NCBI GenBank assembly: GCA_014799385.1 | Contig: JAAVIC010000019.1 | Location: 1-58,303 of the forward strand | From: Oscillospiraceae bacterium | GTDB lineage: Bacteria; Bacillota; Clostridia; Oscillospirales; Ruminococcaceae | Direction: 5' to 3' | DNA: 58,303 bases | In this document: in pieces, positions 33,366 through 57,508 of the stretch | Layout: each line of letters begins with the position of its first letter | Numbering within the stretch: position 1 is the first letter of the stretch | Translations under genes and position numbers: made by a program | Notes under the pieces: generated by a model | Database searches by the model: none | What the model saw: only the letters and a program-made list of their open reading frames with translations | What the model was told of the DNA's origin: nothing

Positions 33366-33707
33366 ATGATAAAAGCAACAATTCAGAACAGTCCGTACTG
33401 CACGGAAATCAGATTCCCGTGTTCGGAAACGGAGCTGTCGAAAAAGCTCGTCGAACTTGGCATGAACACAGAGCATCTCGCTCCAATCGGTACGATCATA
33501 GAGATTGAGCCTGTCGAATTGTCCGTGCTGGAGGACTGCGACGTCAGCCTTGACGCGCTGAACTATCTTGGAAAGCGTATGGACGGTATGTGCAAGGCGG
33601 AGCGCAATCAGTTCCTCGCTGTGCTGTCGTGCGATGAGTTGGAAATCGGGTACGGCTTGAAAAATATCATCAACCTTACCTATAACCTTGCGCGGTATAC
33701 ACTTTGA
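33366..33707 (+). CDS. Antirestriction protein ArdA, N-terminal part (split gene)
   Basis: 113 residues: IKATIQNSPYCTEIRFPCSE, LDALNYLGKRMDGM and LKNIINLTYNLARYTL. In related ICEs these run on without a break into IEDTDDLERIGRIHMLNVHG, which here begins the next frame. ArdA proteins mimic DNA and block type I enzymes. The TGA at 33705-33707 overlaps the next start as TTGA. Either the gene has split or a -1 frameshift joins the halves. ATG 33366 follows GGAGG. Confidence 0.7.
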   Translation: MIKATIQNSPYCTEIRFPCSETELSKKLVELGMNTEHLAPIGTIIEIEPVELSVLEDCDVSLDALNYLGKRMDGMCKAERNQFLAVLSCDELEIGYGLKNIINLTYNLARYTL

Positions 33708-34819
33708 TCGAGGACACGGACGATCTCGAACGCATTGGACGAATTCATATGCTCAACGTTCACGGAGGGCTTTCCGAAGCCGAATTCAGCAACAGCGAAT
33801 GGCTTGCCGAAGAAGGAATGAAGCTCCTGAATTCGGGCAGCGGAATCGACACCGAGTACGGGAAACTTTTTGTGAATGAGGAAATCCCGTTCGATGAAAT
33901 TTTCAACGGAACTACATTCCCCGCTTATTTGTGTGAGCCTAATTCGGTCTCGGCGGTCGAAATAGGTTATTCCGATTTGACAGAGCTTGTCGAATTGCCG
34001 TGTGAGGATATCGCAATCAAAAAGGTGCTTCGCAGACTCGGCGCGGACAGCGTAAAGGACTGCAAAATTTCAGTCGATTCAACTCGGGATATTTCCGATG
34101 AGTGGTCGAAAAAGATCTCCGAGGTCGAAAAAACAAAAGACCTGTTTGGGCTGAACCGTATGCTGAAAACAGATGGTATCCGCTTGAATAGGGAGAAGCC
34201 CGTGAGCATATTTAATAAGGAAGTGACAAGGCAGCTTCGGGAAAATGACTTCGCCGTTTCCCAAGATGGTGATTCACTTAATGTCATGACAACCGACAGT
34301 TATTTGGTTAAAGTACTTGAAAACGGATCAATGCGTGTTCCCGAGAACTGTCCTTCCGATTCGTATTCTCAAATCAAAAAGGTAATGAAAGAGACTTACG
34401 ATTTCTGTTCAATCTTTGCAAAAGCCGCACCGCTCAAAGCAAATGGATTGTCGGAAAAATACCGTTGTCTTGCTGAATTCAACAGCACAGTCCTGGCAGC
34501 AAAATATAATGAGGAATATGGCTTTGAATTCGTTACATGGGATAGGACGTTCGACGGAAAGGGCGTTACACAGGGAAATTATTATTCCGACTATTTGGCG
34601 GCAAAAGAGAATTTCGCAATCCGATCCGGACTTATCGATAAGGATAAGCTATTCAGCACGGAGGAACTTGAACAGCTCGGGAAGTGCGTGAATTTCACCG
34701 CAAGGCACAACGGTGATCTCAACTTTGACGATTGTGAAAATCTGAAAAGATTGGGCGAGAAAATTTCGGAGAGCCTTCCGGTGCAACAGCAGAGCGACGC
34801 TCCCGAGCTGTCAATGTGA
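33704..34819 (+). CDS. Antirestriction protein ArdA-like, C-terminal part with an extra domain
   Basis: 371 residues starting at TTG 33704. Residues 1-70 continue the ArdA family (DDLERIGRIHMLNVHGGLSE, DTEYGKLFVNEEIPFDEIFN). Residues 75-240 are a further ArdA-like repeat (ELPCEDIAIKKVLRRLGADS). The last ~120 residues (NGLSEKYRCLAEFNSTVLAA, WDRTFDGKGVTQGNYYSDY) match proteins seen in ICEs beside DUF3849. It ends in APELSM, the tail shared by several ICE proteins. It probably shields incoming ICE DNA from restriction such as the neighbouring type I system. Confidence 0.65.
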   Translation: MIEDTDDLERIGRIHMLNVHGGLSEAEFSNSEWLAEEGMKLLNSGSGIDTEYGKLFVNEEIPFDEIFNGTTFPAYLCEPNSVSAVEIGYSDLTELVELPCEDIAIKKVLRRLGADSVKDCKISVDSTRDISDEWSKKISEVEKTKDLFGLNRMLKTDGIRLNREKPVSIFNKEVTRQLRENDFAVSQDGDSLNVMTTDSYLVKVLENGSMRVPENCPSDSYSQIKKVMKETYDFCSIFAKAAPLKANGLSEKYRCLAEFNSTVLAAKYNEEYGFEFVTWDRTFDGKGVTQGNYYSDYLAAKENFAIRSGLIDKDKLFSTEELEQLGKCVNFTARHNGDLNFDDCENLKRLGEKISESLPVQQQSDAPELSM

Positions 34820-34831
34820 AAGGGGCAGAAA

Positions 34832-35212
34832 ATGAAGATAAGTTTTAAAAGCCCGTTTCACAGAAAAGCATTCGTGAAATTCATTTCGGAAAATATCGCA
34901 AACCCGTACTGCTGCCGCCGCGAATATGTTGCGGCGGTTTTTCTGTTATCTGCGGATAAGTTTCTGTGGAAACGTGCCTGCCGCTCTTTAGCGGTGCATT
35001 CGATGAAATTCGACGGACTTGACCTGGTGGGAATTTCCACCGAGGGATACGCATTATTTATGGCGGCAAAGTCAATATACTGCGGCGGCGCAGGTGTTTC
35101 GTTGAACGAATTATGCGACGTGAATCTGATCGATGACCCAACCGCAATGACGATTTTCGCTGGAGTTATGTTGGTCAGAAACGGCGTTGGATTGCTGAAT
35201 TGGAGGATATAA
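34832..35212 (+). CDS. ICE protein of unknown function, weakly DUF6075-like
   Basis: 126 residues. The start ISFKSPFHRKAFVKFISE and the middle CCRREYVAAVFLLSADKFLW resemble DUF6075 proteins, which begin with F-x-H-x-x-F and have an alternating hydrophobic helix. The C-terminal half (YALFMAAKSIYCGGAGVSLN, DPTAMTIFAGVMLVRNG) is helical. There is no signal peptide. It follows ardA by 12 bases with GGGGCAG and is probably in the same transcript. Confidence 0.5.
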   Translation: MKISFKSPFHRKAFVKFISENIANPYCCRREYVAAVFLLSADKFLWKRACRSLAVHSMKFDGLDLVGISTEGYALFMAAKSIYCGGAGVSLNELCDVNLIDDPTAMTIFAGVMLVRNGVGLLNWRI

Positions 35213-35213
35213 T

Positions 35214-35570
35214 ATGAAACTGAAACCGATAACCATCGCCCTTGCTGTGGGCGCGTCTTTGATGATGACAAGCTGCGTATACAAAGTCGCAAACGAGCGC
35301 AACACCACCAATATTTTTAATATCGAGAGTCAGGGCGATATGGCGGTGACGCTGTACTACGACGTTGAAGAACCAACGATCACGTTCATAACGCCGGGCG
35401 GCACAAAAATCTCTGCGGACAGCCTGCCGACCGACCGCGATAATGGCGCGGTTTGCTACCATATAATCAACGCCGCTCCCGGTCAATGGCGAATGAGCTA
35501 CGACAAGAAAAACAACGGTACGCTCGAGGTAAATTGGGCGCCGGAGCTTAAACAGGAGGATTTGATATGA
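35214..35570 (+). CDS. Small putative lipoprotein
   Basis: 118 residues with a lipoprotein signal: KLKPITIALAVGASLMMTSC (lipobox LMMTSC, Cys ~21). The mature part is a short beta-rich domain (MAVTLYYDVEEPTITFITPG, APGQWRMSYDKKNNGTLEVN). It would sit on the outer face of the membrane, perhaps with the transfer apparatus or as a surface-exclusion factor, but no family is recognised. It overlaps the next gene by 4 bases (ATGA). Confidence 0.65.
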   Translation: MKLKPITIALAVGASLMMTSCVYKVANERNTTNIFNIESQGDMAVTLYYDVEEPTITFITPGGTKISADSLPTDRDNGAVCYHIINAAPGQWRMSYDKKNNGTLEVNWAPELKQEDLI

Positions 35571-35944
35571 TAAGTTTTTTTATTAAGAACGGGAATAACT
35601 CGCTGAAATTTGATATGCCCACGGACGAGTTGGTCGACCATTTGGGCAGCATCGGGATCAACAGTGATATCCCGATTACTTGCAGCGAGAAGATATATCT
35701 CGACTTCTACCCTACCGATGAAACGGACAAGATCGCGAAGATCGTGTGCGACCGCTTGCTCCCCGGGGATAAGATTTCCGACGTGAATGGGCTTTGCGTA
35801 AAGCTTGACGGAATGTGGAGGTTCAGCGCGGAGGAATTTGAAAGCGCACTCGCGGAAAACGATGTTCGCGGCGCGCTGAACATTGACGCGGCTTACGAGA
35901 AAATGCTGCATGAACCGGAGCAGACGAACGGTATGAGTATGTGA
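35567..35944 (+). CDS. ICE protein of unknown function with the MSM tail
   Basis: 125 residues, acidic and soluble. ISFFIKNGNNSLKFDMPTDE, LVDHLGSIGINSDIPITCSE and LPGDKISDVNGLCVKLDGMW suggest an alpha/beta fold resembling the first ArdA segment (strand, then DELVDHLGSIGI helix), so an ArdA-like or accessory antirestriction role is possible. It ends in TNGMSM. It is translationally coupled to the lipoprotein upstream. Confidence 0.55.
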   Translation: MISFFIKNGNNSLKFDMPTDELVDHLGSIGINSDIPITCSEKIYLDFYPTDETDKIAKIVCDRLLPGDKISDVNGLCVKLDGMWRFSAEEFESALAENDVRGALNIDAAYEKMLHEPEQTNGMSM

Positions 35945-35990: not shown

Positions 35991-36248
35991 ATGGCAATGA
36001 GCAGAGGACGAGTTGAATTCTACAAGGAGCATTATCCGGCAGGAACGCGCATTTGTCTTGACAGAATGGGCGACGATTCGCGATCGATTCCCGCAGGAAC
36101 AAAAGGCACGGTAGTTGTGGTGGATGATATCGGAACGGTTTTCGTGAATTTCGACTGTGGAAGAATGCTTGGGGTCTGCCCCGAGGCGGACAAGTTCCAC
36201 AAGATTTTCGAGCAGACGGAATCGCAGGAGCCGAAAATGTCGATGTAA
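35991..36248 (+). CDS. DUF4314-like small protein with the MSM tail
   Basis: 85 residues. The core PAGTRICLDRMGDDSRSIPA, GTKGTVVVVDDIGTVFVNFD, CGRMLGVCPEADKF is the DUF4314 pattern (an SH3-like barrel), common in clostridial mobile elements. The family usually ends near this point; here a linker (EQTESQ) and EPKMSM follow. Ribosome site GGAGGGAGGTG, ATG 35991. Function unknown. Confidence 0.75.
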   Translation: MAMSRGRVEFYKEHYPAGTRICLDRMGDDSRSIPAGTKGTVVVVDDIGTVFVNFDCGRMLGVCPEADKFHKIFEQTESQEPKMSM

Positions 36249-36262: not shown

Positions 36263-37381
36263 TTGCAGAGGAGTGATTTTATAGCAATTAAATTTTTTGA
36301 TTGTTTCGCCGGAATCGGAGGATTTCGGTCGGGACTTGAACAGGCGGGTGGCTTTGAGTGTATCGGGTTTTGCGAGATAGATAAACACGCTGCGGCGGCT
36401 TACAGAGCCATGTACGACACGGAGGGAGAGATTTTTTACGATGACATTACGAGAATTGATACAGCCCGAATGCCCGACTTCGACTTGTTCGTCGGCGGGT
36501 TCCCTTGTCAAGCATTTTCGTGCTGCGGAAAAATGGGAGGGTTTGACGATCCCCGAGGAGCTTTGTTCTTTGAGCTTGCCCGAATTATCAAAAACAAGCG
36601 GCCTGCGGCTTTCCTGTTGGAAAATGTTCCCGCGCTGCTTGGGCATCAGTCGGGGAGAACCTTTGGAACGATCCTTTACACGCTTTCGGAATTGGGGTAT
36701 TGCGTGGAATGGATGGTTCATAACTCTGCCCGTTTCGGAGTCCCTCAATCGAGGCGGAGGACTTACATTGTCGGACATCGCCGTCCAGAACGCGCCGGCA
36801 AAATATTCCCTGTCGAGTGCGGCGATTGCGAAAGCCCTGTCGAGATTATAGGCGGTCCGCAAGGCTCAAGAGTCTACTCTGCCGAGGGAACGGCGGTAAC
36901 GCAATGCTATAGCGGTCGCTTTGATGCGCGGCATCCGTGCCGCGCTTTGGCGACCGCTTCGCAACATCGTGTTGCGGGCTCGGGCGGTGGCGGCGGAAAA
37001 ACGGGCTTGTATTTTTTCGATATGAATCCCGATTTTGATTTTACGGAAAACGCTCGCTGTCTGCTCGCCCGATATGATTCGGGAGTGAGCAATCACAAGG
37101 GCGTTAATTCCAGAATTTTTGTTGAAGGAAATTTCCCTGGGGCAGTAAGATTTATTGACAAAAACGGAGTGCTGCGGATTGGCATTCTACGCAAGCTCAT
37201 GCCACTTGAGAGTTGGCGGCTGCAAGGCTTTGAGGACGATCAATTTAACAAGGTTGCGGCACTCGGAATGCGTGATGGTCAGCTTTATAAAATGGCCGGT
37301 AACGCGGTTTCCGTTCCCGTTATCAAGGCGATAGGCGAGAAAATTCGTGATGTTATTTTTGACGGAGGTGAGGAAAAATGA
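36263..37381 (+). CDS. DNA cytosine-C5 methyltransferase, with an in-frame palindromic insert
   Basis: ~370 residues. Motif I IKFFDCFAGIGGFRSGLEQA, motif IV GGFPCQAFS (catalytic Cys), motif VI LLENVPALL, motif VIII FGVPQSRRRTYIVG and motif X MAGNAVSVPV are all present. Within the target-recognition region the 65-nt palindromic element (36911-36975) is translated as roughly SGRFDARHPCRALATASQH before GGGGGKTGLYF. The start is unclear: the ribosome site GAGGAG (36268) would favour the codon at 36281, which is ATA, whereas TTG 36263 lies upstream of it. It probably modifies ICE DNA against restriction. Confidence 0.85.
   Translation: MQRSDFIAIKFFDCFAGIGGFRSGLEQAGGFECIGFCEIDKHAAAAYRAMYDTEGEIFYDDITRIDTARMPDFDLFVGGFPCQAFSCCGKMGGFDDPRGALFFELARIIKNKRPAAFLLENVPALLGHQSGRTFGTILYTLSELGYCVEWMVHNSARFGVPQSRRRTYIVGHRRPERAGKIFPVECGDCESPVEIIGGPQGSRVYSAEGTAVTQCYSGRFDARHPCRALATASQHRVAGSGGGGGKTGLYFFDMNPDFDFTENARCLLARYDSGVSNHKGVNSRIFVEGNFPGAVRFIDKNGVLRIGILRKLMPLESWRLQGFEDDQFNKVAALGMRDGQLYKMAGNAVSVPVIKAIGEKIRDVIFDGGEEK
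36911..36975. repeat. 65-nt nested palindromic element, copy 2, inside a coding region
   Basis: Outer stem AGCGGTCGC (36911-36919) / GCGACCGCT (36950-36958) around CGCGGC-atccgt-GCCGCG (36927-36944), then GCAACA-tcg-TGTTGC (36961-36975). Same length and layout as 4123-4187. It keeps the methyltransferase frame open. Confidence 0.75.
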
Positions 37382-37710
37382 AGCCAATTAACGCAAACGA
37401 AGCGGATTACGAGCGCTTTGAAATTCTCGGTCACGACGCGCTTTTCACTTGCTTGCGAATTGACCACAAGACGCTCCCCGAGGGGCTTTACGCCTACGAT
37501 ATCCGCGACAGCGATGACTGCGACGGAACGCCATCCGAGGTGCGGAAATTCGTAATGATCAACCATTGGGGAACAGTAATAACTCGAGAGCCTATTGAGG
37601 GCGCGGACGAGGGAATTGTCCTTGAAGATGATGATTACAACTATCTCGGCGAGGATATGACGCTCGATGAATTCGCAAATCCCGCTCCTATAATGGAGCA
37701 AACAATGTAA
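37378..37710 (+). CDS. LPD28-like accessory protein
   Basis: 110 residues, strongly acidic. LPEGLYAYDIRDSDDCDGTP and MINHWGTVITREPI match the LPD28 domain (large polyvalent protein-associated domain), found on mobile elements either alone or fused to helicase or primase proteins. It overlaps the methyltransferase stop by 4 bases. The tail (APIMEQTM) is a looser version of the shared ICE tail. Confidence 0.7.
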   Translation: MKPINANEADYERFEILGHDALFTCLRIDHKTLPEGLYAYDIRDSDDCDGTPSEVRKFVMINHWGTVITREPIEGADEGIVLEDDDYNYLGEDMTLDEFANPAPIMEQTM

Positions 37711-37819
37711 CAAATAATTGTGTTCGCCTGTGAAACAGCAGGTGCAGCACGACTCCAAATTGAATAAAGGTTGCTTTGGTCACCTCGCTGTTTTACGGCT
37801 TTGCACATTGCAGGAGGTG

Positions 37820-38656
37820 ATGAAAATAAATAGTTTTATGAGCTGGATCGGCGGCAAGAAAAGCAGCCGCGATATAATCATTCCGAGATTCCCGATATAT
37901 TACGAAAAATATATCGAGGTTTTTGGCGGAGGTGGCTGGATACTCTTCGGAAAGCCGCCCGGCAACGATCATGAGGTGTTCAATGACGCAAATTCAAATA
38001 TTTCAAATTTGTTTTATTGCGTTCGTGAACACAGCGAGGAACTAATCGAAAAGCTGCGATATGTGCTTAATTGTCGTGAAGATTTCGACAGAATCAAACA
38101 CATCATCAGCGAAAAAGCGGAGATAGGTGATGTGCAAAGAGCCAGCGAATTTTATCAGCTTATCCGTTACAGCTACGCAAGCTCGTGTGACAGCTTCGGA
38201 GGCAAGCCGCACAGTATGTGGGGAAACTTTCCGCTTATCGAACAGGCTTCAAGGCGATTGCAGCGGGTCGTGATCGAGAATAAGGATTTTGAGAAACTCA
38301 TCTCAGCACAGGACAGCGAGGTGAGCTTTTTTTATTGCGATCCGCCATACTTCTCGACCGAGAGCTATTATGAAAATGTTGGCTTCACGACCGCCGATCA
38401 TGAGCGATTGCGGGATTCGCTGAAAAACATTTCGGGAAAATTCCTTGTTTCATACAATGATTGTCCCGAAATACGCGAACTTTACGGCGGCTATGAAATG
38501 TATTCATATGAGCGCTTGAACAATATCCGTCAGCGGTTTGACGGCGGCAGTATGTTTGGCGAGCTGCTCATAGCCAACTACGACTTGAACGAAAGGCTGA
38601 ATACCAATCAGCAAATTTCACTTTTCGAAATGGAGGACAATTATGGTGACATTTAA
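37820..38656 (+). CDS. DNA adenine methyltransferase (Dam family)
   Basis: 278 residues: FMSWIGGKKSSRDIII, the AdoMet loop EVFGGGGWILFGKP, and catalytic DPPY in FFYCDPPYFSTESYYE. The C-terminal QRFDGGSMFGELLIANYDL is typical of Dam/D12-class enzymes. No restriction partner is adjacent, so it is an orphan methylase, probably for anti-restriction or element regulation. ATG 37820 follows AGGAGGTG; the upstream open frame lacks a ribosome site. It overlaps the next gene by 14 bases. Confidence 0.88.
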   Translation: MKINSFMSWIGGKKSSRDIIIPRFPIYYEKYIEVFGGGGWILFGKPPGNDHEVFNDANSNISNLFYCVREHSEELIEKLRYVLNCREDFDRIKHIISEKAEIGDVQRASEFYQLIRYSYASSCDSFGGKPHSMWGNFPLIEQASRRLQRVVIENKDFEKLISAQDSEVSFFYCDPPYFSTESYYENVGFTTADHERLRDSLKNISGKFLVSYNDCPEIRELYGGYEMYSYERLNNIRQRFDGGSMFGELLIANYDLNERLNTNQQISLFEMEDNYGDI

Positions 38657-38882: not shown

Positions 38883-39661
38883 AAACGAAATTATCCTTTT
38901 CAAGCATAAGGAATTCGGCGAGATAAGGACGCTGAATATCGACGGCGAGCCGTGGTTTGTGGGCAAAGATATTGCGGAAAAACTTGGGTATGTTGAAGCG
39001 GCAAAAGCGATAAGGACACACGTTGACACGGAAGATAAAGGGGTGTCCGTTTTGGACACCCCCGGAGGGCAACAGAAATTTACAACAATCAACGAAAGCG
39101 GACTGTACAGCCTTATCCTTTCAAGCAAGCTGCCGAGCGCAAAAAAAATTCAAGCATTGGGTAACCGCCGAGATTCTCCCCTCTTTGAGAAAGCACGGAG
39201 CGTACTTCACTTCGGAAACTTTGCATAAAACCATGAGCGATCCGCGTGAGCTGGCGAAGCTGCTCACTGCGCTTGCGGATGAGCAGGATAAGCGCAGAAA
39301 GCTCGAAGAAGAAAATGCTTTCCTTTCGGTAAAAGCAAGCTACTACGACCGAATCTTGTACAGCAAGAATTCCGTTCCCGTAACGCAGATCGCAAAGGAC
39401 TACGGCATGACGGCGATTGCATTCAACAGAATGCTGCACGAATACGGAATACAATATCCGATTCGCAATTCGTGGGTTTTGTATGCGGAATATGCAGATA
39501 AAAATTACACGCAAAGCAAGACTTATCAAATCGGCGAAGATCGCTCGGTTATGCATACTTGCTGGACGCAAAAGGGGCGCATTTTCCTTTACGACTTTTT
39601 GAAATCGCATGGCGTTTTGCCTATGTGCGAACAGGAGGGCTATGATGAAACCCTTGTATAG
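38875..39661 (+). pseudogene. BRO/KilA-C type antirepressor interrupted at an A8 run
   Basis: The first frame (from ATG 38875) gives a BRO-N domain (EFGEIRTLNIDGEPWFVGKD, VLDTPGGQQKFTTINESGLY). At AAAAAAAA (39141-39148) it shifts and ends at 39228. The continuation is in another frame: KKFKHWVTAEILPSLRKHGA, then a KilA-C/phage antirepressor C-terminal domain (SVPVTQIAKDYGMTAIAFNR) to 39661. With seven A the two parts form one ~260-residue protein. This may be a mutation, transcriptional slippage or a sequencing error. Such proteins relieve repressor control of mobile elements. Confidence 0.75.
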
Positions 39662-40364
39662 ATATTCGGTTGAAACTGCGAAGCGTGACGGCGAGCTTGA
39701 CGCTTGGCGCGAGAGTCTAAAAGAGGATATCCGCTGTCGGGATTTCCTTGACGAACAGGTTAGGGAGAAATTTGACGGTTTTCGCTTGCCCGATGAATGC
39801 ATCGAAAATGCTATCAAGGAATTCGGCTACGACAGAACTATGTGGGTAATCGCTAATACAATCTTGGAGCGTAAGGGCGACGGAAGATTTAGTGAGCAGA
39901 ACCGGAAATGGGCAAAAAGCCTTAATATCTCATCAGATCGGCACAATTACGAGTTTGCACTGAATTCGCATAGCTGCACTGTTGACGGGCTGGCGAGTGA
40001 TGTTCGGAAGATGTATGACGCGCTCGGCTTGTTTTCGGGCAAGCATATCGTCCAATCGGACGAGCCGCAGGACTATGAGGGAAAACTGCTCATTCTCCGA
40101 GATATCTCTCTGAAAGAGAAATATCGGACTCCCGAAAATCAGTTGTTTCTGGCTGACGGCGGATTCGGCTGTTCCCCTACGGCAAGCGGTCGCAAGGTGT
40201 ACGGACAGTTTTTATCGGACGGTGAAAAAACGCAGTTTTATCGTCAAGACTTTATCGGCGTGATTGCCGACGAGCATATTCCCGATTGGGCGCGGGAAAA
40301 GCTCGAGCAGCTTACTGCGGAGCAGGAGCAGACGCAGAATAATTCGCCCGAAATGAAGATGTAA
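39642..40364 (+). CDS. DUF3849-type ICE protein with the shared tail
   Basis: 240 residues. The N-terminal ~85 match DUF3849 (YSVETAKRDGELDAWRESLK, FDGFRLPDECIENAIKEFGY, VIANTILERKGDGRFSEQNR). The second half (NYEFALNSHSCTVDGLASDV, PENQLFLADGGFGCSPTASG, GQFLSDGEKTQFYRQDFIGV) is a domain that commonly follows DUF3849 in these elements. Soluble; function unknown. ATG 39642 follows AGGAGGG. The last residues, SPEMKM, belong to the tail family. A strong terminator follows, ending the accessory operon. Confidence 0.7.
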   Translation: MMKPLYRYSVETAKRDGELDAWRESLKEDIRCRDFLDEQVREKFDGFRLPDECIENAIKEFGYDRTMWVIANTILERKGDGRFSEQNRKWAKSLNISSDRHNYEFALNSHSCTVDGLASDVRKMYDALGLFSGKHIVQSDEPQDYEGKLLILRDISLKEKYRTPENQLFLADGGFGCSPTASGRKVYGQFLSDGEKTQFYRQDFIGVIADEHIPDWAREKLEQLTAEQEQTQNNSPEMKM

Positions 40365-40389: not shown

Positions 40390-40424
40390 GCATAAATAAA
40401 ATTATTTTTATGGAGGACTTTTTT

Positions 40425-40655
40425 ATGAGAAACTTTTTCAAGAATGCAAAGGCAAAGGTTCAGGCTAAGGCAGTGCGCGCGGCGATGCTTATTCAGGCAA
40501 AGCGCGCGGAAAATTTCGTGGACAGCGGTATCAAGATTCTGATCGCGGTCGTTATCGGCGCACTGCTGCTCGCCGGACTGTACGCGCTGTTCGGAGAAAC
40601 CATTATGCCCACCGTGACCGAAAAGGTCAAGGATATGTTCAATTTCAAGGGATAA
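40425..40655 (+). CDS. DUF6133-type pilin candidate, copy 1
   Basis: 76 residues. A basic N-terminus (MRNFFKNAKAKVQAKA) is followed by AENFVDSGIKILIAVVIGAL and a further hydrophobic stretch (LLAGLYALF), then a short polar end. The glutamate just before the hydrophobic helix recalls the Flp/Tad pilins, which are cut before a G/A-x4-E motif. A prepilin peptidase and the Tad machinery follow. The copy at 41331 differs at only four residues, and the ribosome-site region (TGGAGGACTTTTTTATGAGA) is repeated too. Probably the major pilin. Confidence 0.7.
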   Translation: MRNFFKNAKAKVQAKAVRAAMLIQAKRAENFVDSGIKILIAVVIGALLLAGLYALFGETIMPTVTEKVKDMFNFKG

Positions 40656-40879
40656 TGGGGAAGCTCGGAATGTGGCTTCTGGTGCTGATCGCGGTCGTGT
40701 TTCTTGCACGACCGCAAGGCACGGCAGCCGTTGAAGAACCACAGCAATATATAGCAAGCGCGGAATGCGCCGATGAGGGATCGGATAGCGGGTCAATCAT
40801 ATTAACTGTCATTATAATCGTGATCATTATCGGTGCAGTCGCGGACGCTTGCGGATCGGAGGATATTTATGAAAGTTGA
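40655..40879 (+). CDS. Small membrane protein with two hydrophobic segments
   Basis: 74 residues. The first hydrophobic segment (MWLLVLIAVVFLARP) could be a signal anchor. A polar, acidic loop of ~30 residues follows, then SIILTVIIIVIIIGAVADAC. ATG 40655 shares a base with the pilin stop. No family is recognised. Its place between two pilin genes suggests a minor pilin or an assembly factor. Confidence 0.55.
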   Translation: MGKLGMWLLVLIAVVFLARPQGTAAVEEPQQYIASAECADEGSDSGSIILTVIIIVIIIGAVADACGSEDIYES

Positions 40880-41201
40880 TGTGAAGATCACAAGTCTGAA
40901 TCCCGGCGACGGAGCTACAAAAGCGTATGCTTCTGTCAATCTGGACGATGTTATCGCTATAAGAAATATCCGTGTCATGGAGGGAAAAAAGGGTCTGTTT
41001 GCCTCAATGCCCTCGTATCAGGGTGCGGATAAAAAGTATTACGATATCGTTTTCCCCAAGACCGCGGAGTTGAGAGAGGAAATCAATAATGCGGTCGTAG
41101 ACGCATATAGACAGACGCTTGCGCAGCTTCAGGAGCAGACTGCCGGAAATTTTAATCGGTCGGAGCAGTCATATGAGGCGGCTCCGACGATGTCGATGTA
41201 A
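40869..41201 (+). CDS. SpoVG-family protein with the MSM tail
   Basis: 110 residues. The first ~80 are SpoVG-like (VDVKITSLNPGDGATKAYAS, VNLDDVIAIRNIRVMEGKKG, LFASMPSYQGADKKYYDIVF). Chromosomal SpoVG is an RNA/DNA-binding regulator affecting sporulation and septation. ICE copies may act as regulators or single-strand nucleic acid binders; that is inference. After a Q-rich helix (YRQTLAQLQEQT) the protein ends in APTMSM, which SpoVG itself lacks. Overlaps the preceding gene by 11 bases. Confidence 0.8.
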   Translation: MKVDVKITSLNPGDGATKAYASVNLDDVIAIRNIRVMEGKKGLFASMPSYQGADKKYYDIVFPKTAELREEINNAVVDAYRQTLAQLQEQTAGNFNRSEQSYEAAPTMSM

Positions 41202-41330
41202 TTAAAATTTCGGAGATTATTTGCGCCGTTGAGGATCAGAGATCGAGCCGCATTTATTTGTCGAATTTATCGGATCAGACATCGGCGCTTTGCCCGGGAT
41301 TTTTATAAATATTTTATGGAGGACTTTTTT

Positions 41331-41561
41331 ATGAGAAACTTTTTTAAGAATGCAAAGGCAAAGGTTCAGGCTAAGGCAATCCGCGCGGCGGTGCTTATTC
41401 AGGCAAACCGTGCGGAGAATTTCGTTGACAGCGGTATCAAGATTCTGATCGCGGTTGTTATCGGCGCGCTGCTGCTCGGCGGTCTCTACGCGCTGTTCGG
41501 CGAAACCATCATGCCCACTGTAACCGAAAAGGTCAAGGATATGTTCAACTTTAAGGGCTGA
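41331..41561 (+). CDS. DUF6133-type pilin candidate, copy 2
   Basis: 76 residues, near-identical to the 40425 product: the four differences are Val/Ile, Met/Val, Lys/Asn and Ala/Gly, all conservative or in the basic segment. It shares the upstream GGAGGACTTTTTT. Its stop overlaps the ATG of the prepilin peptidase, which ties it to the Tad genes. Two such copies suggest high dosage or heteropolymeric pili. Confidence 0.7.
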   Translation: MRNFFKNAKAKVQAKAIRAAVLIQANRAENFVDSGIKILIAVVIGALLLGGLYALFGETIMPTVTEKVKDMFNFKG

Positions 41562-41995
41562 TGATCGGCTCTGTTGTGCAGTTTGCAGCGATTACAATTT
41601 TGCTTGGCATAGGTTCAATAATGGACATTAAAACCCGTGAAATTCCAAATTGGATAAGCGTTGCTGTTTTAATTACGGCAGCGCTTAATTTTAATTTGGA
41701 AAATTTATGGGGATTGATTGTCGCCGTTATCTTTTTCTCCGTGGCTCTTGCTACGGGGAAGATCGGCGGCGGTGATGTCAAGCTGATCGCGGCTTTGAGC
41801 ATGGTCTGCGGACTTTGGGGCAGCTTCGCGCTGCTCTTTTTCGCGCAGATATCCATGCTCCTTTTTTATGCGGGATATTGTATATTCTGCAAAATTAACG
41901 GTAAAACGGCAGACAAGGCTCCTGGGGGCAGCTTCTGCCTGCCGTTTGTGCCGTTTATTTTTATCGGTTATTTGGCTTCAAAACTCATATTTTGA
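41561..41995 (+). CDS. Prepilin peptidase (TadV/CpaA, A24 family)
   Basis: 144 residues with about four to five membrane segments. Both catalytic aspartates are visible: the first in GSIMDIKTREIPNWIS and the second in KIGGGDVKLIAALS (G-x-G-D). The small size without a methylase domain is typical of TadV/CpaA. It would cleave the leaders of the DUF6133, DUF4320 and related proteins here. It begins on the pilin stop codon. Confidence 0.88.
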   Translation: MIGSVVQFAAITILLGIGSIMDIKTREIPNWISVAVLITAALNFNLENLWGLIVAVIFFSVALATGKIGGGDVKLIAALSMVCGLWGSFALLFFAQISMLLFYAGYCIFCKINGKTADKAPGGSFCLPFVPFIFIGYLASKLIF

Positions 41996-42009
41996 AAGGA
42001 AGAACGGCA

Positions 42010-42888
42010 ATGAAATTTTTGAAAAACAGAACGGTTCTCGGCGTGGTATGCATTGCGCTGTCGCTTATTATCTGCTTTGCGATCACTCCGCTTTTTAACG
42101 CAAGCAAGAGCAGCACGATGAAGATCGTGAGGATCAAGAACGACTTGAAGATCGGACAGGAGATCACCTCTAAGGACATTGAGGTCGTAGAGGTCGGAGC
42201 GTACAATATGCCCTCTGAGGTCATGCAGAAATTCGAGGACGTTGTCGGAAAGTATGCGGCAGCGGAAATGCTGAAAAACGAGTATGTTCTTGCGACAAAA
42301 ATAAGCGATACCCCCGCTTCGGAAAACATCTATTTATACGGCTTGACGGGCGAAAAAAGAGCGATTTCCATAACGATTCCGTCATTCGCCGGAGGACTTT
42401 CCGGCAAGCTCATTTCCGGAGATATCGTGTCGGTGATCGCGGTCGACTATAAGGAAAAGGGCGAAACAGTCGTTCCCGAGGAATTACAGTATGTCGAGGT
42501 TATCGCCGTGACCGACAAGAAAGGCAACGATGACGAAACAGTTACCGTAAAGCCCGACGGCAAGGAAGAAACCGAGCTGCCCGAAACCGTTACCTTGCTA
42601 GTAACTCCCGAACAGGCGAATATCCTTGCCGAACTGGAAGCGGAGGGCGAGATCCATATTTCGCTTGTATACCGCGGAACGTCTGAGAACGCGCAGAAAT
42701 TCATTTCGGCGCAGGAGAAATATTTGGAGGAACTTGCGGAGAAAGAAAATGAAAAAGAAAATAACAGCAAGCCCGAAAAGCCGCAGAAGCCTACGGAGAG
42801 CGAGATTACCGAGAGTAACACCTCCGAGGAGAACTCCGGCGAAAACAATTCCGAAACGGAGGTGACTTCCGATGCCGAATCTGTTTAA
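42010..42888 (+). CDS. CpaB/RcpC-like pilus assembly protein (SAF domain)
   Basis: 292 residues. One N-terminal transmembrane helix (GVVCIALSLIICFAITPLF), a SAF domain (IVRIKNDLKIGQEITSKDIE, EYVLATKISDT) and a second beta domain (RAISITIPSFAGGLSGKLIS, GDIVSVIAV) match CpaB/RcpC. The C-terminal ~60 residues are low-complexity, rich in E, N, S and P. In Gram-negatives CpaB helps the outer-membrane secretin; here it more likely spans the cell wall. RBS GAAAGGAAG. Confidence 0.8.
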   Translation: MKFLKNRTVLGVVCIALSLIICFAITPLFNASKSSTMKIVRIKNDLKIGQEITSKDIEVVEVGAYNMPSEVMQKFEDVVGKYAAAEMLKNEYVLATKISDTPASENIYLYGLTGEKRAISITIPSFAGGLSGKLISGDIVSVIAVDYKEKGETVVPEELQYVEVIAVTDKKGNDDETVTVKPDGKEETELPETVTLLVTPEQANILAELEAEGEIHISLVYRGTSENAQKFISAQEKYLEELAEKENEKENNSKPEKPQKPTESEITESNTSEENSGENNSETEVTSDAESV

Positions 42889-46037: not shown

Positions 46038-46048
46038 GGGGCGAAAAA

Positions 46049-46921: not shown

Positions 46922-46932
46922 TGGAGGTGTGC

Positions 46933-47858: not shown

Positions 47859-47870
47859 TGGTTTTTCTAC

Positions 47871-47899
47871 TGGATTTCCACGAAAAAATGTGGTATTGT
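47871..47899 (+). promoter_or_regulatory. Internal promoter before the DUF6550-like gene
   Basis: TGGATT (47871-47876), 17 bp ending TGTGG, TATTGT (47894-47899), 35 bases before ATG 47934. Confidence 0.6.
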
Positions 47900-47933
47900 T
47901 GAAGTAACAAAACTGAAAGGACAGGTGATTTTT

Positions 47934-52056: not shown

Positions 52057-52629
52057 TTGAAGAACAAAAAACAACAACAGCAGTCAACCAAACAGCTGCT
52101 TGGAATCGAGGGCATAACCGAATATTCGCTCAAGACCGCTTTCTCTGAGGCGGTCTTTTTCAGTATCAAGCCAAGCAACATTTCGGTGATGTCCGAGGCG
52201 AGTTTGTCGGCAAAGATATACTCGCTGATGAGCGTTCTGAAAGGCTTGACGGAAATCGAGATACTCTGCGTAAACAGCCGCGAGAGCTTCGAGGGAAACA
52301 AGAACCACTTGAAAAATCTCGCGCAGAAAGAGGATAATCCCGCGGTGCGCAAGCTGCTTGAGCAGGATATGCAGCACCTCGAACACATTCAGGCGATGAC
52401 GGCAACGGCGAGAGAGTTTCTGCTTATCGTGAGAATACGTGGTTTGAAAGACAAGGAGATATTCTCGTATCTCAACAGGATCGAAAAGACCTTGAACGAG
52501 AACGGTTTCTCCGTAAGACGATACGACGGCGAGGATATCAAGACGCTCCTCGCCGTTTATTATGAGCAAAATGTCACGACGGAGAAATTCGAGGACGCTG
52601 ACGGAGAAAGGTGGGTATTAAATGGCTGA
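52057..52629 (+). CDS. Conjugation ATPase N-domain-like protein
   Basis: 190 residues. SVMSEASLSAKIYSLMSVLK, GLTEIEILCVNSRESFEGNK, FLLIVRIRGLKDKEIFSYLN and IEKTLNENGFSVRRYDGEDI resemble the N-terminal domain of VirB4/ConE-class ATPases, but no P-loop is present. It may be a stand-alone partner of the VirB4 at 53659. Starts at TTG 52057 with GGAGGTAATT upstream, 3 bases after the previous gene. Overlaps the next gene by 8 bases. Confidence 0.6.
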   Translation: MKNKKQQQQSTKQLLGIEGITEYSLKTAFSEAVFFSIKPSNISVMSEASLSAKIYSLMSVLKGLTEIEILCVNSRESFEGNKNHLKNLAQKEDNPAVRKLLEQDMQHLEHIQAMTATAREFLLIVRIRGLKDKEIFSYLNRIEKTLNENGFSVRRYDGEDIKTLLAVYYEQNVTTEKFEDADGERWVLNG

Positions 52630-53662
52630 TAAGCTGGTTTTAAACGCCGATCTGAACTACAAGACTGCGGAATTCACCCCCGAAAAATGCACGGTGGAAA
52701 AGGTAATTGAGGTATCCGGAGCGGAATTCAAAAGGTTTTACGAAAAGCCTATGAAGCCTAATTACTATCTTTCGACGTACAAGAATTTAATGGGATTTTT
52801 CGATGAAAGCTATCACTGTGTTCTGTTTATCAACGAGCAAAACGGTGACGGACTGCTTATCAATTCCGAGGGCGCTGACTACGCGCGTTATTCGCAATAT
52901 ATTCCTAACGCGCGCGGAATTATTCGGGAGCATGAGCAAACTGGCGCGCTCGAAGATTTGAAAATCCACATGGACTGCTGCATTGACAGATGGCTTAAAC
53001 AGTGCGCAAACGAGAGCAAATTCGGAATACCGCTGACAGACCTTATTGACAACAGCAATCTCGCCGAAATTTTTGTGGATTACGCTTCGGAAATGTTGAG
53101 CAATGATCCAAGGATTGAAACCTGTGAGTTGACGTCCAACACTCTCGAAGTATCCAAGCGAGAGTTAGTCGAAACAAGACTGTATTGTCCGCTGAAATTT
53201 GAGATGGATTCCGATGACGGCAGCGGTTATCCGCTTGAAATCGATTCGGCGAATTATATCGATTACGATGACGAAATAAACGAAAGTATCCGCAGGGATT
53301 TATGCAGCGACAAAGACGCGGTGGAGCGCGGTTTGGCGGCTTATCTTCATGACAAAAATCTTAATCAAAAGGTGTATTCCGCGATGCCAGAAGTCGAAAC
53401 CCGCAACGGTGAAATTTACGGAGTTGTGCTTGTGAAATCCTACGGCGATTTGGAAAAATCCGAATTAATTGATTTGACGGAGGAACTGACCGGACAGCTT
53501 TCGGACGGCTGGGGCGAGGGCTTCGAGCAGCATCCCGTCACGCTTGACGGTGATGAGGTATACATTTCATTCTGGAGCAGCGATGACGGTTATTTCCTCA
53601 AGCCCGAATCCGAGGTGTTCCCCACGCAAAATTTTGAACAGACAATGGGAGGTATATCGTGA
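52622..53662 (+). CDS. ICE protein of unknown function with a DUF6329-like N-terminus
   Basis: 346 residues, acidic, soluble. The N-terminal ~130 residues (LVLNADLNYKTAEFTPEKCT, VEKVIEVSGAEFKRFYEKPM, YHCVLFINEQNGDGLLINSE) fit the DUF6329 pattern from memory. The C-terminal ~90 (YGVVLVKSYGDLEKSELIDL, TEELTGQLSDGWGEGFEQHP) are a separate module found in other ICE proteins. It lies between the VirB4 N-domain-like gene and virB4, overlapping both, so tight co-translation is likely. Confidence 0.6.
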   Translation: MADKLVLNADLNYKTAEFTPEKCTVEKVIEVSGAEFKRFYEKPMKPNYYLSTYKNLMGFFDESYHCVLFINEQNGDGLLINSEGADYARYSQYIPNARGIIREHEQTGALEDLKIHMDCCIDRWLKQCANESKFGIPLTDLIDNSNLAEIFVDYASEMLSNDPRIETCELTSNTLEVSKRELVETRLYCPLKFEMDSDDGSGYPLEIDSANYIDYDDEINESIRRDLCSDKDAVERGLAAYLHDKNLNQKVYSAMPEVETRNGEIYGVVLVKSYGDLEKSELIDLTEELTGQLSDGWGEGFEQHPVTLDGDEVYISFWSSDDGYFLKPESEVFPTQNFEQTMGGIS

Positions 53663-55482
53663 AGAAGAAAATAACAACCGTGGAAAGGGATTTCGCGACC
53701 AAACCGCAGAAGAATTTCCTTGACATGATAGCGCCGTCCGTGATCAAGTTTTTCACGGACTATTTTATTTGCGGGAACACATTTCGCTGCGTGTGGGCGT
53801 TGCGGGAATATCCGACCTCGACAAGCGAACAGGCAATATTGCGTTATCTCGGAGAGAAAGACGGCGTTACGCTCCGTATCTATACGTACCATGTGACAGC
53901 CGCCGAGGAAAAGCGGATCATCGCCAATGCCGCCAACAAGAACCGAATGCAGCGCAATTCCACCAACGACTTGCAGCAGACGGTCGCCGCAGAAAGCAAT
54001 TTGCAGGACGTTGCGCAGATCGCCGCGGATATGCACCGGAACCGCGAACCGCTGCTGCATACGGCGGTTTTTCTTGAAATGATTTCGGACTCATTGGACA
54101 ATTTGAGAATACTCCAAACCGAGGTGCAGACCGAATTGGTACGTTCCAAGCTGAATGTTGACCGCCTTATGCTCCGCCAGCAGCACGGCTTTATGAGCGT
54201 AATGCCGAGCGGTCGGAATATGTTTCGGGAGCAGTTCGAACGCGTTCTGCCCGCGTCCTCGGTCGCGAATCTTTATCCGTTTTCGTTTTCGGGAAAAACG
54301 GACGAGAACGGATTTTACCTCGGACGAGATAAGTTCGGCAGCAATATTATCGTGGATTTCGACAAACGCAGTGACGACAAAACCAACGCGAACACGCTTA
54401 TTCTGGGCAATTCCGGGCAAGGAAAATCCTATCTGCTCAAACTGATACTGACCAATCTGCGCGAGAGCGGAAAGAACATAATCTGCCTTGACCCCGAAAT
54501 GGAATATGTCGACCTTACCAAAAATCTCGGCGGTTGTTTCATTGACCTTATGTCGGGTGAGTATATTATAAACGTTCTTGAACCCAAATCGTGGGGCGAT
54601 GAAACCGCCGATGATGACGCTCCGCAGGCTTTCAAATCCAAAACGAAATTGTCGCAGCACATCAGCTTTCTGCGCGACTTCTTCCGCAGCTACAAGGATT
54701 TTTCGGACAGAGAAATTGACACGATTGAATTGCTGCTCATAAAGCTGTATGAGAAGTTCGGGATATCCGATGATACCGATTGGAGCAAAATGCAGCCCAC
54801 GGATTATCCGATACTCTCGGATTTTTACGAGCTTATCGAAGCCGAGTACAAAGCGTTCAATCCGAAAGAGAAAAGTCTTTACACCGCCGAAAACCTGCAG
54901 AGTATTTGCCTCGGACTGCACTCGATCTGCAAGGGCGCAGAGAGTCAATTTTTCAACGGTCACACTAATATAACGGATAATAATTTCGTGACATTTGGTG
55001 TAAAAGGATTACTCCAGGCAAGCAAGAATATCCGCAATGCTTTGCTGTTCAATGTCCTCGCGTATATGTCCGAGCAGCTTTTGAGCAGAGGAAATACGGT
55101 CGCGAGTATCGACGAGTTCTACCTCTTCCTCACCAATCTCACGGCGGTCGAGTATATCCGAAACTTTATGAAGCGCGTCCGCAAAAAGGAATCCGCCGTG
55201 ATCCTCGCAAGCCAAAATATTGAGGACTTTCTCGTGGAAAATGTCCGTGAGCTGACAAAGCCGCTGTTCTCGATCCCGACACATATTTTTCTGTTTTATC
55301 CCGGAACCATTGAAAAAGGAACGTATATGGATACGCTTCAGGTGGAGGCTTCGGAATACGGGCTAATACAGTTTTCACAGCGCGGGGTTTGTCTTTATAA
55401 ATGCGGAAACGAACGCTACTGTCTGTGCGTGAAAGCGCCCGACCACAAGGCTGGGCTGTTCGGCTCGGCGGGAGGTAGATGA
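53659..55482 (+). CDS. VirB4-like conjugative transfer ATPase
   Basis: 607 residues. The N-terminal domain (NFLDMIAPSVIKFFTDYFIC) precedes a C-terminal RecA-like domain with Walker A LILGNSGQGKSYLLKLIL (~255) and Walker B NTVASIDEFYLFLTN (~480), plus VILASQNIEDFL and the arginine-containing FMKRVRKKESAV. It powers substrate and subunit export through the T4SS. Length is within range for Gram-positive ICE VirB4. It overlaps the gene before it by 4 bases, and the next gene starts 2 bases after it. Confidence 0.92.
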   Translation: MKKKITTVERDFATKPQKNFLDMIAPSVIKFFTDYFICGNTFRCVWALREYPTSTSEQAILRYLGEKDGVTLRIYTYHVTAAEEKRIIANAANKNRMQRNSTNDLQQTVAAESNLQDVAQIAADMHRNREPLLHTAVFLEMISDSLDNLRILQTEVQTELVRSKLNVDRLMLRQQHGFMSVMPSGRNMFREQFERVLPASSVANLYPFSFSGKTDENGFYLGRDKFGSNIIVDFDKRSDDKTNANTLILGNSGQGKSYLLKLILTNLRESGKNIICLDPEMEYVDLTKNLGGCFIDLMSGEYIINVLEPKSWGDETADDDAPQAFKSKTKLSQHISFLRDFFRSYKDFSDREIDTIELLLIKLYEKFGISDDTDWSKMQPTDYPILSDFYELIEAEYKAFNPKEKSLYTAENLQSICLGLHSICKGAESQFFNGHTNITDNNFVTFGVKGLLQASKNIRNALLFNVLAYMSEQLLSRGNTVASIDEFYLFLTNLTAVEYIRNFMKRVRKKESAVILASQNIEDFLVENVRELTKPLFSIPTHIFLFYPGTIEKGTYMDTLQVEASEYGLIQFSQRGVCLYKCGNERYCLCVKAPDHKAGLFGSAGGR

Positions 55483-56029: not shown

Positions 56030-56201
56030 CAACAAAAAATATGTCGGCGCGACCGCGGAGGACTGCAAGATGATTCATCTTGCGATTTCAAAGGGCAGCA
56101 AGCTGACGATTGACAGCAGCGGACGCATTTATGACGACACGGGACGGTGGATCGCGGACGGAAAGGAGCGGGAAAATGAACGCAATTTATACCGTGATTG
56201 A
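56004..56201 (+). CDS. Small ICE protein, unknown
   Basis: 65 residues: AKVGFDNKKYVGATAEDCKM, IHLAISKGSKLTIDSSGRIY, then a charged end. No membrane segment. ATG 56004 has GGAGGTGG directly upstream and overlaps the preceding gene by 26 bases. The compact start, ribosome site and overlap support a real gene; function unknown. Confidence 0.55.
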   Translation: MMTAKVGFDNKKYVGATAEDCKMIHLAISKGSKLTIDSSGRIYDDTGRWIADGKERENERNLYRD

Positions 56202-56340
56202 AAATGGTCGGGAGAGTTATTTCAGAACCGGTATCGCGGGCGGTTACAGTTATCCGTTTCTTGCTTACGGCTACGCAAAAAGCATGGCGCGGACTCTGAA
56301 CGGGGTGATTCGATGGGAAAAGTCGGCGTTTCCGAAATGA
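56176..56340 (+). CDS. Very small ICE protein, unknown
   Basis: 54 residues: NAIYTVIENGRESYFRTGIA, GGYSYPFLAYGYAKSMARTL. ATG 56176 follows GGAGCGGG and overlaps both neighbours. It could be a small regulator or coupling peptide; unrecognised. Confidence 0.5.
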   Translation: MNAIYTVIENGRESYFRTGIAGGYSYPFLAYGYAKSMARTLNGVIRWEKSAFPK

Positions 56341-57050
56341 TTCCGCTGTTGAAAGCCAACGAAAATTTCCCCGATGATGTTCGCGGAGAACGGCTTTTCT
56401 ACCCGCTTTCCGAAGAAATATTTTTTAAGCGGGAGAGCGAAATGTCGCAGTCGGATTTCACTCCGTTCAGCATCACTCTGGACTTTGACGAGCGGAAAAT
56501 AGGCTTTGTTTTTAATCGAAACTGTCCCGAATTGCCGCTGCTGAAAATAGAGATTTTTATCGGCGAAACGGACGCGAGAAAATTCTGCGACGGCATTCCG
56601 TGCAACATTAAAAACTTGGAGAGCTACTATAAAAATGAGCTTTTGTGGAGCGTTCTGGAGCGTCCCGCTTTCGCAATAAAAATCGACAGCGATAAAATTC
56701 CCGAAATAGGATCGGCACTGCTGCCGCTGTCCGAACACAATCAAAAGGGGCTTATGGAAGAACTCGAAACGGACGACCTCGACAAGTGCGAGGTGCTTTC
56801 GGTTATCTCTTTTGACGCAACTCTGAACGCGCATTTGTGCTTGAACGGTGAGAAATTTTCAAAGCTGAATGAGCTTGCAAATTCGCTTAACAGACTGCGT
56901 TTGGACTGCGGAGATAACGCGTTCGCGGCATTTGTTACGGCGAGTAAAGCGGCGGAAATACACGGCGCGGACAACGCGATGACAGTTGTTGAAAACGTAA
57001 GAAACGGCTTCGCTATACGGGAAACGCAGGACTTGGATTTGAGAATGTGA
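56313..57050 (+). CDS. ICE protein of unknown function, possibly antirestriction-related
   Basis: 245 residues, soluble and acidic. The N-terminal half is beta-rich (FSITLDFDERKIGFVFNRNC). The C-terminal half (KLNELANSLNRLRLDCGDNA, FAAFVTASKAAEIHGADNAM, TVVENVRNGFAI) repeats a pattern seen in the ArdA-like protein at 33366 (LDALNYLGKRMDGM...AERNQFLAVL...LKNIINLTYNL), which suggests an ArdA-type DNA mimic. It ends LDLRM, a loose form of the shared tail. ATG 56313 precedes GKVGVSEMIP. Confidence 0.5.
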   Translation: MGKVGVSEMIPLLKANENFPDDVRGERLFYPLSEEIFFKRESEMSQSDFTPFSITLDFDERKIGFVFNRNCPELPLLKIEIFIGETDARKFCDGIPCNIKNLESYYKNELLWSVLERPAFAIKIDSDKIPEIGSALLPLSEHNQKGLMEELETDDLDKCEVLSVISFDATLNAHLCLNGEKFSKLNELANSLNRLRLDCGDNAFAAFVTASKAAEIHGADNAMTVVENVRNGFAIRETQDLDLRM

Positions 57051-57058
57051 GGAATTTT

Positions 57059-57508
57059 ATGAAATACCAAATAAAATGTGCCGATCCGGAACAGCATTCG
57101 ATGTTCTATTCGGACTGCGAACCCGCTCTTCGGAACGCTTGCGTAGGTCATCTGCGAATGGATTTCGGCAGCGGGAACGAGTTCTTTTCGACATGGTGGG
57201 GCAACCGCAACGACTTGAACGACAGCGTTTTCAAGTCCGAATTTGACGATGTTGTAAATAATTTGCGCGAGTCGGGATTGCTGAAAAACAGGAGCGAAAT
57301 GCGGCGGGTTTGTTCCGCGAAAGAGAGTCTGCCGCTAGGCGAGAGTTATGGATTTTCGGTTGAATCGGAAAGCCATATTTTTCTCCTTCGATGTCGCCCC
57401 GAGCGCGGCAATTACGACTGCTATATGTACTGTTACAACAAGCGCGAATTGCAGCTCGCGCAGTCGCAGAAGCAGGACGAATCGCAGTCGCCGGAGATGT
57501 CATTATGA
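57059..57508 (+). CDS. ICE protein of unknown function with the shared tail
   Basis: 149 residues: ACVGHLRMDFGSGNEFFSTW, WGNRNDLNDSVFKSEFDDVV, YGFSVESESHIFLLRCRPER, GNYDCYMYCYNKRELQ. This is a small alpha/beta protein that recurs in clostridial ICEs (from memory), no motif known. It ends SPEMSL, matching the tail family. ATG 57059 lies 8 bases after the previous stop with GAGGAATTTT upstream. Overlaps the next gene as ATGA. Confidence 0.6.
   Translation: MKYQIKCADPEQHSMFYSDCEPALRNACVGHLRMDFGSGNEFFSTWWGNRNDLNDSVFKSEFDDVVNNLRESGLLKNRSEMRRVCSAKESLPLGESYGFSVESESHIFLLRCRPERGNYDCYMYCYNKRELQLAQSQKQDESQSPEMSL

Follow-up and report, generated by a model that had tools for sequence, protein, structure and literature searches.

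The contig JAAVIC010000019.1 of the Oscillospiraceae bacterium assembly GCA_014799385.1 was analyzed over its full length of 58,303 nucleotides (the window). It carries genes of a conjugative element in which proteins of unrelated families end in a similar short tail rich in methionine (Met). Eight such C-terminal tails had been named in a sequence-only reading of this DNA, and all eight were present at the respective genes. They are given below, along with tail variants and with untailed genes that served as negative controls (aa, amino acids).

33080..33328, + strand: small KPDCPL protein; tail variant DIGLDMR at 33305-33325
33704..34819, + strand: 371-aa protein, no Pfam match, clusters with ArdA and LPD28 proteins; tail APELSM at 34799-34816
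35567..35944, + strand: 125-aa protein without Pfam match; tail TNGMSM at 35924-35941
35991..36248, + strand: DUF4314 protein; tail EPKMSM at 36228-36245
36263..37381, + strand: C5-type DNA methylase, confirmed by Pfam; untailed, negative control
37378..37710, + strand: LPD28 protein; tail IMEQTM at 37690-37707 (orthologues VMEQTM, KMEQSM, TINQTM)
37718..38656, + strand: D12-type adenine methylase, confirmed by Pfam; untailed, negative control
39642..40364, + strand: DUF3849 protein; tail SPEMKM at 40344-40361 (orthologues SPEMKM, TPEIKM, NITLNM, EPQLNM)
40869..41201, + strand: SpoVG homologue; tail APTMSM at 41181-41198
52622..53662, + strand: DUF6329 protein; tail variant FEQTMGGIS at 53633-53659
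53659..55482, + strand: VirB4-type ATPase of the element's export machine, TraG P-loop and AAA_10 matches; untailed (FGSAGGR end), negative control
56313..57050, + strand: 245-aa protein without Pfam match; tail DLDLRM at 57030-57047
57059..57508, + strand: 149-aa protein without significant Pfam match; tail SPEMSL at 57488-57505

The tailed proteins had been described as unrelated, and the transfer-machine and methylase proteins of the window as lacking the tail; both descriptions agree with our data. Four Pfam families are represented (DUF4314, LPD28, DUF3849, and SpoVG), and the products of the genes at 33704, 35567, 56313, and 57059 gave no significant match. Where a Pfam domain was present, the tail was located C-terminal to it. 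The predicted structure of the SpoVG homologue has its last helix ending at residue 95 and a predicted local distance difference test score (pLDDT) below 50 for residues 93-103; in this low-confidence model (mean pLDDT 65), the tail apparently lies beyond the last helix and is unstructured. The gene at 33704 looks split, since its relatives, at locus L038 and in a second copy on contig C7 of the window's genome (L083), have one 483-aa open reading frame (ORF) in place of the two ORFs 33354-33707 and 33704-34819. The predicted structure of the 483-aa relative was too poor for a structure search (mean pLDDT 53.5), and no Pfam match was obtained for it. Relatives of the KPDCPL protein end in DEEMEVTMN, EDLGMEMM, and EDMRMG, and the DUF6329 proteins of Ruminococcus flavefaciens in QDMEMSM and EDVGLKM.

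Tail excess and selection at the protein level

The window sample, a hand-chosen tiling of 38 genes from 33,080 to 57,508, was compared with a host background of 391 ORFs of at least 70 aa from 18 stretches of the window's own genome. An end of the form [MLIVF]-x-[ML] in which at least one of the three residues is Met was observed in 7 of the 38 window genes as compared with 3 of the 391 host ORFs (Fisher p 2.5e-6), and two or more Met among the final 8 residues in 5/38 as compared with 8/391 (p 0.003); both rules were picked after the tails had been seen, so that the tests in independent material weigh more. With an automatic gene caller, which misses the gene at 35567, ends of the form [MLIVF]-x-M were found in 5/37 window genes and 3/382 host genes. 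The tail is thus rare on random proteins of the host (3/391).

The match had been proposed to reside in the protein and not in the DNA, and this was borne out by the orthologues, in which the tail serine is encoded by TCG, TCA, TCT, and TCC, the stop codons are TAA, TGA, and TAG, the proline and threonine codons vary too, and the tail Met is exchanged for Leu or Ile. Because serine and stop codons vary and Met is replaced in this way, selection acts at the protein level. A constraint on the DNA or RNA, imposed by the ribosome site of the next gene, or a copying of gene ends by recombination might be suspected from the tight gene packing and from the GGAG present in some ends. Such an origin is largely ruled out by the synonymous variation and, given also that the linkers differ and that related elements of another class carry basic ER ends instead (see below), is extremely unlikely.

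In an alignment of 10 SpoVG homologues, Pro106, Met108, and Met110 were invariant, and the preceding linker drifted. Across 171 sequences from six tailed clusters, the share of Met at positions -1, -3, and -5 was 50, 30, and 23 percent (background 3, 1, and 3), and Glu was enriched at -8 to -12; these clusters had been selected for the tail, which makes the Met excess partly circular, whereas the spacing and the acidic linker are not.

Tailed families in related elements and their homologues elsewhere

Elements were classified by their type IV coupling protein (T4CP), class A being the class of the window element and class B the other T4CP class. When genome contigs were scanned with the DUF3849 protein, 21 loci were obtained, with many orthologues that bear the same tails, and the tail is thus present in related elements. 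Further families in elements of R. flavefaciens and Ruminococcus bicirculans end in VELKM, QDMEMSM, GMSMEM, GMSIDL, GMEVTMN, GMTMISF, EPEMSM, and EEMNMSM. In the element of R. flavefaciens SAb67, the tailed proteins include ArdA, a pentapeptide-repeat protein, LPD28, a DUF3849-YodL-DUF3846 protein, two DUF6329 proteins, and a RepB-reg-like protein; the T4CP, VirB4, the C5 and D12 methylases, and a Bro-N protein are among those without a tail.

The genes of 34 sequence sets, mostly class A elements, were clustered by single linkage after removal of the last 20 residues, and a strict Met tail was defined as two or more Met among the final eight residues. Of the 52 clusters present in at least four sets, some of which contain merged or falsely called ORFs, 13 had any strict Met tail and 39 had none. 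Strict Met tails were found in the ArdA/LPD28/33704 cluster (32/54), DUF4314/DUF6329 (25/41), DUF3849/YodL (15/34), SpoVG (16/20), the small KPDCPL and pentapeptide proteins (11/14), the RepB-reg-like proteins (5/8), two small unnamed clusters (3/4 each), the Toprim primase (3/15), a small cysteine-rich family (3/9), a family of 96-218 aa (2/6), the MobL relaxase cluster (2/13), and one further cluster (1/6). None were found in VirB4 (0/30), the D12 methylase (0/30), the C5 methylase (0/25), Bro-N (0/18), VirB6 (0/17), T4CP (0/15), and a cluster that we take to be MobC-like (0/13). Six class A clusters have at least 35% strict Met tails and are candidate substrates. Matches to the Pfam families PF18843, PF07275, PF14191, PF12960, PF12957, and PF14192 occurred in elements with VirB4, T4CP, and relaxase; domains of the polyvalent-protein kind (LPD, ArdA, YodL, or similar) are thus present in elements with a type IV secretion system (T4SS).

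Homologues outside elements were different. Among the 30 best-scoring SpoVG loci, 19 had no element neighbors and 11 did; this comparison of neighbors was used because a context test for chromosomal SpoVG based on a GlmU motif gave 0 cases in the 30 loci. The tail was absent from all SpoVG homologues without element neighbors (0/19), and 8 of 10 element-borne ones were tailed (9 of 11 as flagged, with L118 dropped as a truncated ORF). The two untailed element-borne proteins (L109 and L113) adjoin T4CPs outside class A. At six genome loci and on two viral contigs, which we read from their context and without formal scoring as not belonging to such elements, DUF4314 proteins end at or just past the domain.

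Several further observations concern these loci. An untailed SpoVG-like ORF of an R. bicirculans element (L049, 11370-12961) is directly followed by two transposase-like genes, which recur elsewhere in the same genome (L069); this arrangement suggests that an insertion removed the end of the ORF. In MT835596.1 and MT839391.1 (L222 and L223), both labeled 'Bacteriophage sp.', the DUF4314 genes adjoin conjugative-looking genes, and these contigs may be fragments of conjugative elements, not phages. The window element itself may be incomplete or decayed. A primase ending in QMSMSV and a class A T4CP ORF are located on another contig of its genome (C30, L220), separated by one gene that is presumably methionine-synthase-like; on contig C21, an in-frame stop interrupts a T4CP match; and the genome yielded no MobL relaxase. 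At 40410-48500 the element contains a Tad/Flp-type pilus set, between the tailed genes and the T4SS genes, which we take, in part from the look of the sequences, to consist of a CpaB-like protein, a TadA-type ATPase, two TadB/C-like membrane proteins, Flp-like pilins, and a prepilin peptidase. The layout is similar in G408 C5, G051 C1, and the plasmid CP141730.1. A near-DNA search of the 33-45 kb region of the window against plasmids gave no match, and the plasmid of Oscillospiraceae MB08-C2-2, similar in its Tad and T4SS layout, showed no clear tail set among the gene ends of 41.7 of its 72.6 kb.

Tail type and coupling-protein class

Elsewhere in the phylum, the sampled DUF3849 relatives mostly have other ends (KEPER, KEQAR, KERER, KEPEL), and in class B elements many proteins carry a Lys/Arg-rich linker that terminates in ER, DR, or AR. 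The proteins tailed in class B are polyvalent-type proteins, a primase-like protein, a protein encoded near the T4CP (presumably PcfB), some relaxases, and small proteins. Domains are found mostly on separate, individually tailed proteins in class A, and in class B also in large fusions with a single tail at the end.

The two tail types replace each other on homologous proteins. With a swap scored as an end of [EDAS]R plus at most two E/V, such ends were observed in 0/19 class A versus 9/11 class B rows of the Toprim primase (two of the 11 being pieces of one split ORF, and two class A primases that end in MR with a Met tail being left uncounted). Conversely, a pair of hydrophobic residues spaced by one was found near the primase end in 17/19 versus 1/11 rows. 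The corresponding [EDAS]R counts were 0/14 versus 3/4 for DUF4314 and 0/6 versus 5/6 for DUF3849; since several class B regions are near-copies, the p-values of these swaps overstate independence. Four DUF4314 loci with class B-like ends (YEAR in L022, GDAR in L024 and L026, and DMER in L027) were excluded from the counts, which cover loci with a checked T4CP. The median charge of the last 15 residues was -4 (DUF4314), -2 (DUF3849), and -2 (primase) in class A and +2, +2, and +1, respectively, in class B. A net positive C-terminus, as in VirB/VirD4 substrates, is therefore seen in class B and not in the class A of the window.

In the exploratory set, Met tails were present in 72/540 and ER tails in 2/540 genes of 15 class A elements, compared with 5/154 and 30/154 in seven class B elements. 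The prediction that the tail type follows the T4CP class was then fixed in writing before unseen genomes were scored. The new sample was drawn from 391 genomes of the bacterial class searched with the class A T4CP and covered the surroundings of 6 class A and 11 class B T4CPs, all from genomes with tails previously unseen; the 11 had been picked as distant T4CP relatives, and their assignment to class B was scored afterwards. The prediction held: Met tails were found in 28/296 class A versus 5/182 class B genes, four of the latter five being VirB6-like proteins ending in REMMGL, and ER tails in 5/296 versus 30/182. After removal of duplicate ends, the numbers for class A, class B, and the host background were 28/296, 3/163, and 8/391 for Met tails and 5/296, 25/163, and 6/391 for ER tails. 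At least two Met tails were present in 6/6 new class A elements, and at least one ER tail in 9/11 of class B.

A T4CP tree built on 40 rows of the exploratory and new sets, of which the main split alone was used on account of its long branches, placed 16/16 Met-labeled elements in one clade of 18 and 14/14 ER-labeled elements outside this class A clade. The two class A rows without a label cover 7 and 11 genes, and eight rows outside class A carried neither label. An early fusion in each element lineage, inherited with little function, would give the same clustering by descent alone. It is nevertheless a most improbable account, as the three invariant SpoVG residues stand beside a drifting linker and as several unrelated families are tailed while machine parts of the same elements are not.

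Both classes were found together in one genome. In G408, the class A element (C5) had Met tails in 10/58 genes and no ER tails, and the class B element (C2) had Met tails in 1/18 and ER tails in 7/18. The same was seen more weakly in R. bicirculans, with Met tails in 3/39 (C1a) and 2/43 (C2) and ER tails in 2/19 genes (C1b). A reader encoded by the host, such as a protease, does not explain this pattern, and an element-encoded reader is more likely. This bears on the alternative that the tail is a C-terminal degron by which a protease such as ClpXP makes the proteins short-lived, so that their activity would be confined to a pulse following transfer. Protease signals can consist of short exposed hydrophobic C-termini, and a brief need for the tailed proteins is plausible. 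Nonetheless, homologous proteins of the two classes bear opposite tails within one host genome, where a host protease sees no single code, and SpoVG without element neighbors is untailed; we regard a degron as very unlikely.

The last 20 residues of the T4CP itself have a median charge of 0 in class A and -5 in class B. The acidic end of class B is opposite in sign to the basic class B tails and would suit them, which is suggestive only; VirB6 ends also differ between the classes. As all parts of an element are linked, the cosegregation of tail type with the T4CP is no proof that this protein acts as the reader. A third T4CP type, of 521 aa, occurs in two elements in which neither tail class is clear (G131 C16 and G137 C8; L199 and L213). 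Their proteins include the ends EPDLEL and EEPEQGMEV, their SpoVG is untailed, and they possibly represent a third code.

A possible export address and known systems

The sequence-only reading had suggested that the tails could be type IV secretion signals, and had named a degron or assembly tag as the alternative. The part of this suggestion that gained support is that of a signal read by the element's own machine, to which the tracking of the T4CP clade, the tail swaps, and the presence of both classes in one genome point; most relaxases do not have the canonical tail. We give a probability of about 0.6 to the reading that the tails are element-class-specific C-terminal addresses read by the type IV export machinery of the element. 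Each element class would put its own short, apparently unstructured tail on helpers of DNA establishment, among them antirestriction and DNA-mimic-type proteins, SpoVG, proteins with polyvalent-type domains, and the Toprim primase. The class A code would consist of an acidic, Q/P-rich linker followed by alternating Met or other hydrophobic residues, and the class B code of a Lys/Arg-rich linker followed by ER, DR, or AR. The tail would be read by the export machinery, most likely by the T4CP, and the tailed proteins would pass into the recipient together with the DNA. Of these steps, we infer the T4CP as the reader, translocation as the outcome, and a role in the recipient for most of the tailed proteins. 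The wider proposal, that monoderm conjugative elements use two or more address codes, each read by the cognate T4CP and sending an establishment kit to the recipient, appears to us about evenly balanced.

A number of points weigh against an export address. Among 19 class A rows of relaxases, which are obligatory substrates, just 2 ended in the canonical Met tail (one fragment was dropped, and the rows are possibly not all full length). A Met in the last 5 residues was found in 10 of these 19 rows as compared with 36/391 background ORFs (p 5e-6), and in 0/6 relaxases of the newly sampled genomes; relaxases may use other signals. Tailed clusters also hold untailed members, the DUF3849 cluster with its 15/34 by the strict rule being an example, and the class B elements G884 and G720 had no ER tail. 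The new elements are possibly relatives of the exploratory ones, and several class B regions are near-copies. Within class A, the charges of the T4CP and primase tails were uncorrelated (rho 0.17, n 17). The match of signal type with cognate T4CP, as seen in the new genomes, the tree, and the swaps, is confounded by genetic linkage, and a different linked reader fits equally well as the T4CP. Finally, no translocation data for these elements appeared among the papers found.

The best rival of the export-address reading is a tag for assembly, by which the tails, without any export, dock establishment proteins on an element-encoded hub of either the donor or the new host, such as a relaxosome or an establishment complex. 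The class specificity of the tail, which requires an element-linked reader, and the lack of the canonical Met tail on most relaxases both suit this alternative, as does the layout of acidic followed by hydrophobic residues, which recalls the partner-binding tail of bacterial SSB. Against it, two unrelated tail chemistries would need a hub each, and no hub of matching pattern was identified, although no systematic search for one was made. Furthermore, up to about three residues may follow the motif in several members (GMEVTMN, GMTMICF, SMGMSEV), in contrast to the strict SSB tip, so that a strictly terminal tip of the SSB type was judged improbable. Taken together, we consider an assembly tag unlikely.

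If confirmed, export addresses of this kind would yield a catalogue of the proteins that conjugation in monoderm gut bacteria is predicted to deliver, and uncharacterized antidefense proteins could be flagged by their tail; the tails would be a general predictor of conjugatively delivered antidefense proteins in gut Bacillota. The two natural codes on homologous proteins would permit a direct test of the reading component, and the idea of 2017 that polyvalent proteins accompany the DNA would become testable.

Several known systems share features with the tails. The SSB tip combines an acidic disordered linker with a hydrophobic-x-hydrophobic end on a DNA-handling protein; the tail described here differs in being Met based, in tolerating residues after the motif, and in occurring on many non-SSB proteins. 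Degrons of the ssrA type, recognized by ClpXP, are likewise short exposed C-terminal peptides, whereas the present tail is encoded in each gene and changes with element class within one host (C5 versus C2 in G408 and, more weakly, C1a and C2 versus C1b in R. bicirculans), which is not the behavior of a code fixed by the host. Dot/Icm effector signals contain a glutamate-rich stretch and a C-terminal hydrophobic residue, and thus resemble the class A tails, in which hydrophobic residues close to the end likewise come after an acidic stretch. The machine, hosts, and substrates are different, and the Met residues of the present tails alternate at positions -1, -3, and -5.

Polyvalent proteins have been treated as effectors that accompany transferred DNA (Iyer et al. 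2017; PMC5512222). LPD28 and YodL, which occur on tailed proteins here, are named in that article and the names DUF3849 and DUF4314 are absent from it; its examined part contains no shared C-terminal tail. Nor did the consulted part of a T4SS review (PMC12857230) describe a shared tail for monoderm systems. A full-text search, read as titles and the starts of abstracts and with subscription journals and preprints outside its range, gave no shared tail on such proteins among the matches listed.

The closest comparison is with the F-type system pED208, for which the portions of the literature consulted (PMC8406263, PMC11288057) report that the maintenance proteins SSB, PsiB, and ParA are translocated, that C-terminal or internal signals matter, and, by citation, that the Sog primase is transferred. 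In the same portions, T4SS signals of recipient-bound proteins are described as C-terminal and often hydrophobic or positively charged. The tails share the C-terminal position with the signals of F/pED208 and of Agrobacterium VirB/VirD4, and the class B tails resemble the positively charged kind. Substrate signals of those systems vary and are grouped only by charge and hydrophobicity (PMC11288057, PMC8406263), whereas here, as known from sequence alone, a single compact motif recurs on several families and depends on the element class. C-terminal T4SS signals are thus familiar, and a compact motif that spans families and switches with element class is, as far as seen in these sources, undescribed. 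Such signals have been hard to define because the substrates of one machine have little sequence in common; the elements analyzed here carry a short, machine-class-specific tail on several families that can be read directly from the sequence.

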